This document shows, piece by piece, positions 36,376 through 51,791 of a stretch of DNA of 64,000 nt. Both the position numbers and the translations under genes were made by a program. The notes beneath the pieces were generated by a model, which was given only the letters and a program-made list of their open reading frames with translations, did not search any database and had not been told where the DNA came from. The stretch's first letter is position 1. Each line of letters starts with the position of its first letter. The DNA comes from Sordariomycetes sp. S80-01Y (Eukaryota > Ascomycota > Sordariomycetes): contig JAXQJY010000033.1 in NCBI GenBank assembly GCA_037042185.1, positions 1,240,001 to 1,304,000 of the forward strand. The letters run 5' to 3'.

Positions 36376-36883
36376 ACGACGTCGTGTAGTGTGTACGCAG
36401 GCAATGGGACGGTGGAATGACGTATATGAACATGGTGTCTCGGTTGTATAAGCTTTAATTGATTCCGCTGATGCCATGTATACGAGCATGCCCATCTATC
36501 TGTAGCTAGTACTAACGACCAAGGGGGGTATTCTCCCAATAAAGCGCTTAAGAAACGGCAACAACAAGAACGATGGCTGCCTCCCAAAACAAGTGTCCCT
36601 GCAAGGAACATGTGATCCTTTGAAAAGCAATCCAAGCGCCGCAAACTCCAATAATGCTGATGAATAATTCCGGGGCGGTATCCTGCCCTGCTCCTTCGCG
36701 CGCGCAGCAGGCCCTATCCTATGCATGGCTAGGCGCGGTGAGTGACGGCTCGAGGCTTGCACAAGCCTCGAGCCGCTTAGGCGCCAGGTTGTGCCGTGAA
36801 GCTGGGGGTTGTGCGACGTGCGCCTCAATCGGTTGGCGATTGGGACGGGGACGCCATCATGCCGGCTCCCACGTACGACAACC
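36376..36883. other. Intergenic region with a strong inverted repeat
   Basis: 508 bp between two convergent genes (SDR and a 70-aa protein). The only clear structure is the 30-bp inverted repeat at 36746-36775. Confidence 0.55.
36746..36775. repeat. Perfect inverted repeat, 14-bp arms, 2-bp spacer
   Basis: CGGCTCGAGGCTTG, then CA, then CAAGCCTCGAGCCG. Both arms are GC-rich and match in every base. It lies downstream of both convergent genes, 109 bp from the small gene's stop codon. Confidence 0.9.
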
Positions 36884-49355: not shown

Positions 49356-49651
49356 CTTGAACCCAAACGCCCTGTGCCGGTCACAGGTAAGATAGAGAAA
49401 TACGAAAAGAACATACGATATGCATGGCGGCCAAGCGAAGGATGGTGCTTTTCAGTCGCTCTTTCATTTGTTGGTTAGCTAGCTTCACTCACGCTCACTA
49501 TACGAATTCACGATAACACTCGCTTGATTTGTCCCTCCCTCCCTACTTCTCTGATCAAGCCCTAAGGAAACGTGACTTATGGATGAAAGCTTCCGCACAG
49601 GCCGACCATCGGATCATCGAAAGGAGGGACGCTGGGAGAGGGGCCGGGAAA

Positions 49652-49703
49652 TGTGGCCTCTCCGGCGCCGATTTCGTCGCGTGGCCGGAACGATTCCGGC
49701 CAC
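49652..49703. promoter_or_regulatory. Palindromic module, distal copy
   Basis: Box TGTGGCCTCTC (49652-49662), 18 bp, then the inverted repeat GTGGCCGGAA-CGA-TTCCGGCCAC (49681-49703), with perfect 10-bp arms. It lies 50 bp upstream of a TATA box, a usual place for an activator site. The arms contain CGG..CCG half-sites 7 bp apart, the arrangement used by many fungal Zn2Cys6 dimers. Confidence 0.7.
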
Positions 49704-49753
49704 TGACTCCACCTGAGGCCGGGCAGCGTCGGACGCGAGTGGGGCTGATCCAA

Positions 49754-49759
49754 TATAAG
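49754..49759 (+). promoter_or_regulatory. TATA box (TATAAG), probable distal IDO start region
   Basis: CCAATATAAGCC followed by a CT-rich stretch (49766-49795), a typical core-promoter layout. If used by IDO, the leader would be about 480 nt and would include the second palindrome. Confidence 0.5.
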
Positions 49760-50116
49760 CCCCGGCCTCCCCCTCCCTCCCTCGACTTCTCTTCATTGTT
49801 GAGCGCGGCACCACCGTAGCTGAGCGACTCAGACTTCGCTTACCAGTCGTCTAAGAGCAACTGAGTTTATGTCAAACTGTTTTGAGTCAAATGTCATTCA
49901 ATCCTACCAAAAAACAACGACCGAAAATCACCAACTCGTCCTCCGGAGCACTCCATAGTAGCACCAGACACTCTTGCGTTAGGCAGGCATCATCAGGGTG
50001 GAAGGCTTGACCGGAATTTCTCTTACTTTTTCATTACTTGATGACTGCCGCGTGACCTTCCGTGAAAAGTAGGAATGCACGAGCCCGTACACCTTCGTAA
50101 TCTCGTCCCCGCCTCA

Positions 50117-50169
50117 GTGGCCGGAATCGATTCCGGCCACGGGGTACTTAGGCGGCGCGAGAGGCCACA
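50117..50169. promoter_or_regulatory. Palindromic module, proximal copy (inverted)
   Basis: GTGGCCGGAATC directly followed by GATTCCGGCCAC (50117-50140), a perfect 24-bp palindrome. Then come 18 bp and the box GAGAGGCCACA (50159-50169), the reverse complement of the distal box apart from drift beyond its ends. Both copies have the palindrome, the 18-bp spacing and the box, but in opposite orientation. It sits about 135 bp upstream of the IDO start codon. Confidence 0.7.
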
Positions 50170-50274
50170 ACCCGAGAGTTGAAACTTGGAAATTCACTCA
50201 TCTGAACAGACTTTATCAGAGTTATCTGAACCTCAGTTTTTCCCATCTACTTCGTTGAGAAATCACACCTCAAG

Positions 50275-51791
50275 ATGGGTTCCCTTGGTGCAACCACCCA
50301 ACCCTTCAACGTCCTAGACGATGCTAGGCCGGGGGACACCTCCATCCCAGCCTTCATGGTCTCTACCACCCGCGGCTTCTTGCCCCGTGCAGACCCCGTT
50401 GTCACGCTGCCACGGGAGTTTGAAGCCCTCGAGTCCATCCTCCAACGCATGCCTATCAAGACTGCCTCAGGGGAGCCCGGGCTCTTGGCCGACAACAAGC
50501 TTGGCGATGAGGTCGACAACAACTTCCCCAACTTGTCCGACGCTATGGACAAGTACAAGGATGACTTGCCCATGATGAACGCTTTGTACAGGGATTATTC
50601 CTTCTTGGCGAGTGCATATCTGCTTGAGCCTTGCCACCAGAGGTTTGTCAAAGGGGAGCCCTATGGGCTGGGGAGACAAGTCCTTCCAGCGAACATATCG
50701 CATCCTATTGCGAAGTGCGCCGAGATGTAAGCTCATACTCCCACCGCTGCAACAATGATTCTGACATGTACAGCTGTGGCTTCAAGCCTTTCATGGAGTA
50801 CGCGGGGTCTTATGCATTGTTTAATTATCGTCTTGAGGATCCAAAGAAGGGTATGGAATATTCCAACCTTCGTCTTATCCGCGCGTTTGAGAACGGCCTG
50901 GATCCAACCTCCTCGGAGGCAGGCTTCGTCCTCGTGCACATCGACATGGTGAAGAACTCCGGACCTCTCGTTGCCGGCGTCATGCAATCCCTCAACGCAG
51001 CGGCCGAATCAACAAATTCCCTCGGCACCGTTGCTCAAAGGGCTAGCTTCAATGAGGGCATGACAAGCGTCCTTGAGGCCATGAGGAAGATCAACGCCGT
51101 CATGGAGACGATGTGGAACAAGTCCTCGCCTATGGCTTACACCAGCTTCAGGACTTTCATCTTTGGCATTACGAGCCAGAGCATGTTCCCTGACGGTGTG
51201 GTATATGAGGGCCTCAACGATGGGAAGCCCATGTCGTTCCGCGGCGAGAGCGGTGCGAACGATTCCATGGTGCCACTGATGGATAACCTCCTCCAAGTGC
51301 CCATGCCGAAGACGCCTCTGACGGAAATCTTGAGTGACTTCCGTGAGTATAGGCCTAGCAACCACAAAGCCTTCCTCTCATACGTCAAGGAGCGTTCGCT
51401 GGAAGTTGGGCTCAAGGACTTTGCCCTGGGGCTCCACGGTCGTGCCTCCAGCGACGAGGAAGCTGAGCTTCTTCGCGAATCTAGGAGCCTATGGATCCAG
51501 GTCCTGAACCAAGTTCGCGACTTCCGCTGGCGTCACTGGTGCTTTGCGAGGGAGTACATTCTCAAGAGGACGAGCCATCCTACCGCCACGGGTGGCAGTC
51601 CCATCGTGACTTGGCTGCCGAATCAGCTGGAGGCTGTGCTGGAGGACATGAAGACCACGTATGAGAAGTGCGGCGGCGAGGGCCTGGGCCGGGTTGCTGA
51701 AGATGTCATGGATGCGGCGATGAGGCAGAGGGATACATTGAGAAAGGAGGTGGACAAGTACTGCGCTGAACGGGGCGTGAGCCGCAGCTGA
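50275..51791 (+). CDS. Indoleamine 2,3-dioxygenase family protein
   Basis: Haem enzyme that opens the tryptophan ring to N-formylkynurenine, the first step toward NAD+ (yeast BNA2). Two exons: 50275-50726 and 50774-51791, with a 47-bp intron; 489 aa, typical for fungal IDOs. Family features: the N-terminal RGFLPRADPV, the FLASAYLLEPCHQRF helix, SFRTFIFGITSQSMFPDGV, and FRGESGANDSMVPLMDNLLQ, which gives the substrate-pocket Gly/Ser-rich loop. The likely proximal haem ligand is His405 in RDFRWRHWCFAREYI. Fungi usually have several IDO paralogs (alpha, beta, gamma); which one this is cannot be told by eye, and some paralogs act weakly on Trp. The upstream palindromes may regulate it. Confidence 0.92.

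Follow-up and report, generated by a model that had tools for sequence, protein, structure and literature searches.

Mirror-image palindromic modules, probably paired operators, upstream of a divergent IDO-family gene

An IDO-family gene preceded by a promoter-sized gap

The window analyzed here is a 64,000-nucleotide stretch of the Sordariomycetes sp. S80-01Y genome, located on contig 16 of the 16 contigs (30.9 Mb) that were searched. It carries a plus-strand IDO-family gene with exon 1 at 50275..50726, starting from the ATG at 50275, and exon 2 at 50774..51791, stop codon included; the splice sites of both exons were judged by eye. The joined exons encode a 489-aa protein that matches the Pfam IDO family (E 2.5e-36, 125.8 bits, residues 26-421) and PDB chains named indoleamine 2,3-dioxygenase 1 or 2 (E 3.7e-15 to 1.5e-13). 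Between the stop of the upstream plus-strand ORF (49355) and the IDO ATG lies a promoter-sized gap of 919 bp with 52% G+C. The gene content of the genome, which includes a chitin synthase, at least 150 Zn2Cys6 domain matches and six IDO-family places, points to a fungus and probably to a filamentous ascomycete.

Eight IDO matches were found at six places in the genome. The best scores per place were 393-578 bits for four of them and 82.8 bits for the window gene. The sixth place (C11:941205-941672, L013) is very weak at 27.6 bits and gave no tblastn alignment to the window IDO. In the same tblastn comparison, the window IDO showed 22.8% identity to the C10 IDO over 307 positions and 20% identity to the C9 IDO over 416 positions, with no significant match to C2 and no alignment to either of the two C11 places. 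Judged by its sequence, the window gene is a divergent IDO, and its divergence suggests that it may be of the idoC/gamma type. The C10 IDO lies ~1 kb from a kynureninase as divergent neighbours (C10:2879748-2883485; L009, L011 and L027), and this kynureninase and strong IDO are probably the canonical kynurenine pair.

Anatomy of the two modules

Two mirror-image modules span 49652-50169 within the gap. Each combines a palindrome, in which 3 or 4 bp separate GTGGCCGGAA from TTCCGGCCAC, with a box that lies exactly 18 bp away and reads GAGAGGCCACA in the outward direction. Module 1 begins with its outer box (49652..49662), which reads GAGAGGCCACA on the minus strand and contains one GTGGCC hexamer, followed by an 18-bp spacer (49663..49680) unrelated to that of module 2. 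Palindrome 1 (49681..49703, 23 bp) comes next and has 10-bp arms around a 3-bp centre, GTGGCCGGAA-CGA-TTCCGGCCAC, containing CCGG-7N-CCGG and CGG-7N-CCG. Module 2 starts with palindrome 2 (50117..50140, 24 bp), a perfect, centreless palindrome with 12-bp arms, GTGGCCGGAATC-GATTCCGGCCAC, containing CCGG-8N-CCGG and CGG-8N-CCG; written with 10-bp arms and a 4-bp centre, it is GTGGCCGGAA-TCGA-TTCCGGCCAC. Its 18-bp spacer (50141..50158) leads to the plus-strand outer box GAGAGGCCACA (50159..50169). The ends of the palindromes are 572 bp (palindrome 1) and 135 bp (palindrome 2) from the ATG. This anatomy of palindrome, exact 18-bp spacing and box, together with its coordinates, had been described in the initial annotation and was found to be right on re-reading of the window.

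Three GTGGCC hexamers occur in each module, as an inverted pair in the palindrome and a further one in the box, 28 bp further out. The 919-bp gap contains six GTGGCC/GGCCAC occurrences, all of them inside the modules; their order is mirrored, and successive ones are 28 and 17 or 18 bp apart. Across the whole window the hexamer shows no enrichment, with 20 and 19 occurrences per strand versus ~25 each expected from base composition.

Agreement between the modules is limited to two blocks

The second module had been claimed to be a reverse-complement copy of the first, and alignment bears this out for the palindrome core and the box. When the TCA on the inner side is included, the 26 core bases of module 1 match the 27 of module 2 with one single-base gap, and the boxes agree at 11/11 positions. 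The initial annotation had also seen weak similarity continuing a little further at both sides, which did not hold up: over 60 bases each way the flanks resemble each other no more than shuffled sequence does (P 0.68 outward and 0.67 inward). The two 18-bp spacers are identical at 5/18 positions without gaps (shuffling P 0.69 for that or more) and reach P 0.12 once gaps are allowed and GGCGC is aligned with a two-base shift. The flanks of palindrome 2 are themselves weakly symmetric (P 0.06); those of palindrome 1 show no such symmetry (P 0.61). In BLAST the modules align as an inverted repeat of 55-56 bp with 83% identity, unevenly distributed along its length. An ungapped repeat finder run on the whole window with arms of at least 20 did not list the pair, which appears at a lower length setting within the gap.

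Two identical blocks kept at constant spacing around unrelated DNA form the pattern that protein contacts would be expected to leave, which is an argument and not a proof. Because the shared blocks flank unrelated DNA at fixed spacing, binding sites fit better than decayed terminal repeats. A recent local inverted duplication of one regulatory site, of which both copies need not work, would account for a 26-base core identity that includes the TCA beyond the palindrome, and the shifted GGCGC match in the spacers points the same way. The spacer and flanks, however, are at or near chance, unlike those of a recent unconstrained copy, and the 18-bp spacing is preserved exactly; we consider such an origin unlikely.

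No further copy of the motif among the patterns searched

The genome was searched with a series of patterns and reversed controls, very common words and simple repeats being omitted. The palindrome core TGGCCGGAA-2..6N-TTCCGGCCA occurs at two places in 30.9 Mb, which are the two modules, and its reversed control at none. Allowing mismatches in GGCCAC-18N-GAGAGGCCACA yielded two places at zero mismatches (both modules), none at one and nine at two; with up to three mismatches, 91 places (54+37) were obtained, a total close to the 78 (40+38) of the reversed control. Of the search proposed in the initial annotation, for palindrome, 18 bp and box together, this form with the end of the palindrome has the two modules as its only exact matches. 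BLAST of the 640-bp stretch against the genome gave three matches, namely itself and its own two arms. The 24-mer with the 4-bp centre, a form that cannot list palindrome 1, matched only itself at up to three mismatches (control, once), and the palindrome pattern with a 5-15-bp centre, the true centres being 3 and 4 bp, was found nowhere in the genome.

Looser patterns were at or below background. CCGGAA-1..8N-TTCCGG occurs at six places versus 21 for the reversed control and is hence not enriched; four of the six lie elsewhere, outside the TGGCCGGAA form. GTGGCCG-6..14N-CGGCCAC is present at four places (control, three), which besides the modules are one within a C15 ORF and one on C2 that falls in none of the listed ORFs; both of these have other centres, and GAGGCCAC is absent from their 3-kb loci. 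CGGCCAC-10..30N-GAGGCCAC is likewise at background (six places versus five), with the modules at 20N and the four others at 19, 27, 28 and 29N. None of the extra places from these looser patterns was seen to have palindrome and box together, and the motif is unique in this genome among the patterns searched. A single GTGGCCGGATTGCTATATAACGGCCAC with TATATAA inside it was observed at C2:213958-213984 (L030, 1501-1527), right before a 424-codon open frame; its 3-kb locus has no GAGGCCAC.

These searches bear on the proposal that the promoter is now carried by a 518-bp foldback or MITE-like element with the modules as its terminal inverted repeats. Elements of these kinds have inverted ends around a short stretch, and the modules resemble them in being inverted ends: the boxes form inverted termini, TG...CA, with the palindromes inside, and BLAST joins the pair as an inverted repeat. 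They differ in being single copy, neither the 640-bp stretch nor the palindrome core having a second copy in 30.9 Mb, and in lacking a target-site duplication. As the initial annotation had noted, no duplication is apparent; no common 4-12-mer was found within 3 bp of the element ends. The identity, moreover, lies in two blocks around an unrelated spacer instead of being evenly decayed. A mobile element was rejected as the leading explanation for want of a second copy in the genome searches and of a target duplication, and we judge it quite unlikely; the modules could still be the single-copy remnant of an element that has otherwise disappeared.

Promoter layout and RNA

The sole plus-strand TATAA in the gap, at 49754..49758, stands beside a CCAAT (49750) and is followed by a CT-rich stretch; it may be the core promoter. 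Transcription may start near 49790; module 2 would then be part of the leader and module 1 would sit 50 bp before the TATAA, so that a repressor could loop across the transcription start. The drawback of this layout is a leader with four upstream ATGs (49869-50182), whose ORFs are 29, 39, 4 and 35 codons long, the 35-codon ORF passing through palindrome 2 and its box. Alternatively, the start may be downstream of module 2, and both modules would then be ordinary upstream sites. In this second layout, toward which we lean slightly, no ATG occurs between module 2 and 50275; against it, no TATAA is found downstream of module 2.

A TGAGTCA, which we take to be a perfect Gcn4/CpcA-type site, was also observed between the modules at 49883-49889, and TGACTC adjoins palindrome 1 at 49704. 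TGAGTCA and TGACTCA each occur twice in the whole window. Cross-pathway amino-acid control through these sequences is possible.

Module 2 could also act as an RNA hairpin in the 5' leader that lowers translation, as its stem is predicted at -26 kcal/mol and it would be transcribed from a start near 49790. Module 1, however, folds similarly (-23 kcal/mol) and yet lies upstream of the TATAA, the stability of the leader is ordinary (z -0.8; 22/100 shuffles equally stable), and an Rfam search gave no family at its gathering score, with one match far below its own. A hairpin would also leave the mirrored box unaccounted for, and we judge this role highly improbable.

Chance expectation

Background was estimated from the window itself, from simulations and from pattern counts with reversed controls. 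Perfect palindromes with 10-bp arms and a spacer of 0-8 bp number three in the window versus 0.6 on average across 60 simulated sequences of 64 kb, and two of the three are those of the modules. The only other one, GGCTCGAGGC-8-GCCTCGAGCC, is at 36747-36774. The initial view that chance is very unlikely is upheld by this excess and by a palindrome core present at two genome places against none for its reversed control. Chance or unconstrained, functionless sequence is the least credible explanation of all, given word probabilities under a first-order model of the window of ~10^-14 and 10^-13.5 for the palindromes and ~10^-6.3 for each box, with the exact spacing repeated.

Paired operators as the best explanation

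We favor, with moderate confidence, the reading that the modules are paired cis-regulatory operators through which a single sequence-specific regulator, most likely homodimeric, would act on the downstream IDO-family gene. A dimer would hold the palindrome, whose symmetry suits it, and a further subunit or a partner would hold the box, where the extra GTGGCC suits a third contact. The modules would act jointly upstream of a start near 50190-50270, or would bracket a start near 49790 and loop. Operators are supported by spacers and flanks at shuffle level alongside an identical core and box. What counts against them is a one-base difference between the palindrome centres, too much for a strict-spacing regulator. 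A half-site with ten identical bases is long by zinc-cluster standards, and some of the identity may therefore reflect shared descent. With no second target in evidence, the regulator would either be dedicated to this gene or tolerate looser matches at other loci.

Between the two readings first offered for the modules, paired sites for a dimeric regulator are thus favored by the blocks, their fixed spacing and their place in one promoter; the foldback or MITE reading loses ground with no other copy in the genome searches and no duplication of 4 bp or more at the ends. As a promoter feature the pair is real and unusual and yet ordinary in kind, namely probable paired operators. We put forward only tentatively, as rather unlikely, that it represents a new operator architecture in which a pair of mirrored composite sites, with three GTGGCC half-sites apiece at set distances, is devoted to one IDO-type gene and read, perhaps by looping across the promoter, by an undescribed fungal regulator whose half-site is unusually long.

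A doubtful link to tryptophan breakdown

In one of its two readings, the initial annotation had placed tryptophan breakdown under the control of these sites. IDO, kynureninase and 3-HAO were sought as pathway genes, and nine loci spanning seven places, extending 1.5 kb past each match, were examined for GGCCGGAA. It is absent from all nine loci of the other IDO places, kynureninase and 3-HAO, and a kynurenine-gene regulon sharing the site was rejected on that ground. Shorter pieces do occur in these loci, with GTGGCCGG in L009 and L013, GGCCGGA in L027, L028 and L029, and GAGGCCAC in L009/L011. Because GGCCGGAA is missing from the other pathway loci, the site is not supported as a general control element of the kynurenine pathway, and with an IDO this divergent the proposed control of tryptophan breakdown appears doubtful. 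This one gene might still respond to tryptophan.

No named regulator of a fungal IDO gene was found in the open-access literature searched. Words of 15-17 letters, three of them taken from the palindromes and one running from the end of palindrome 1 into its spacer, had no match in open-access papers, and 10- and 11-mers of the motif gave no fungal title among the matches listed. The title of a paper on okaramine in Penicillium (PMC10888127) touches on fungal tryptophan regulation. In the available parts of the sources on Aspergillus, only the alpha and beta IDO types of A. oryzae are thought to be active in tryptophan catabolism (PMC7448278; PMC5786828), the kynureninase and idoB of A. fumigatus have neighbouring locus numbers, and its idoC responds to tryptophan with slight induction and is said to be nearer to bacterial IDOs (PMC5786828). 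Type c IDOs are said, in the accessible text of a further paper, to show very little activity and to have no clear role, and for Psilocybe the regulators that bind promoters of tryptophan pathway or catabolic genes are given as unknown (PMC11046786). If the window gene is of this third IDO type, a strong gene-specific operator would offer a handle on the binding protein, its signal and the purpose of the enzyme.

Comparison with known regulator families

Gal4, UaY and Put3 are Zn2Cys6 proteins with inverted-CGG operators. The inverted CGG...CCG of the modules is spaced by 7 bp in palindrome 1 (CGG-7N-CCG at 49686) and by 8 bp in palindrome 2 (CGG-8N-CCG at 50122), these being the only 6-8N cases in the gap; with 24 CGG-7N-CCG and 20 CGG-8N-CCG in the window, the form is weak evidence taken alone. 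Compared with the operators in the accessible motif table of other Zn2Cys6 proteins (PMC12941744), the modules share an inverted CGG...CCG in a promoter and differ in their spacings of 7 and 8, their ten-base identical arms and the extra box. These two spacings would speak against a strict-spacing Zn2Cys6 member. At least 150 Zn2Cys6 domain matches are present in the genome, and the nearest such domain on the contig, among the best 150 of 416 candidates, is ~174 kb off.

The velvet-domain protein VosA has the site CTGGCCaaGGC in the available description (PMC3876986). It is a dimeric regulator and its site shares the TGGCC core, but neither CTGGCC nor GGCCAG occurs in 49356-50274. A velvet site was rejected as no fit, the CTGGCC core being missing from the gap on either strand.

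PrnA, the Zn2Cys6 activator of proline use in the Aspergillus nidulans prn cluster, is reported in the accessible part of PMC5983819 to take sites of CCGG-6/7N-CCGG or CCGG-N-CCGG. Three CCGG-7N-CCGG and two CCGG-8N-CCGG occur in the window, and two of these five are the palindromes: palindrome 1 fits the PrnA form (CCGG-7N-CCGG at 49685), while palindrome 2 (CCGG-8N-CCGG at 50121) falls one base outside the reported range. That available PrnA description mentions neither the GTGG/CCAC flanks of the modules nor a box 18 bp away. The two systems are alike in one base of spacing slack, several sites per intergenic region and a setting in amino-acid catabolism. Since PrnA is reported to take two spacings, flexible-spacing Zn2Cys6 members exist (PMC5983819). 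We assign the modules to no named site family; they look built like a dimeric operator, for which a Zn2Cys6 protein is our leading guess.
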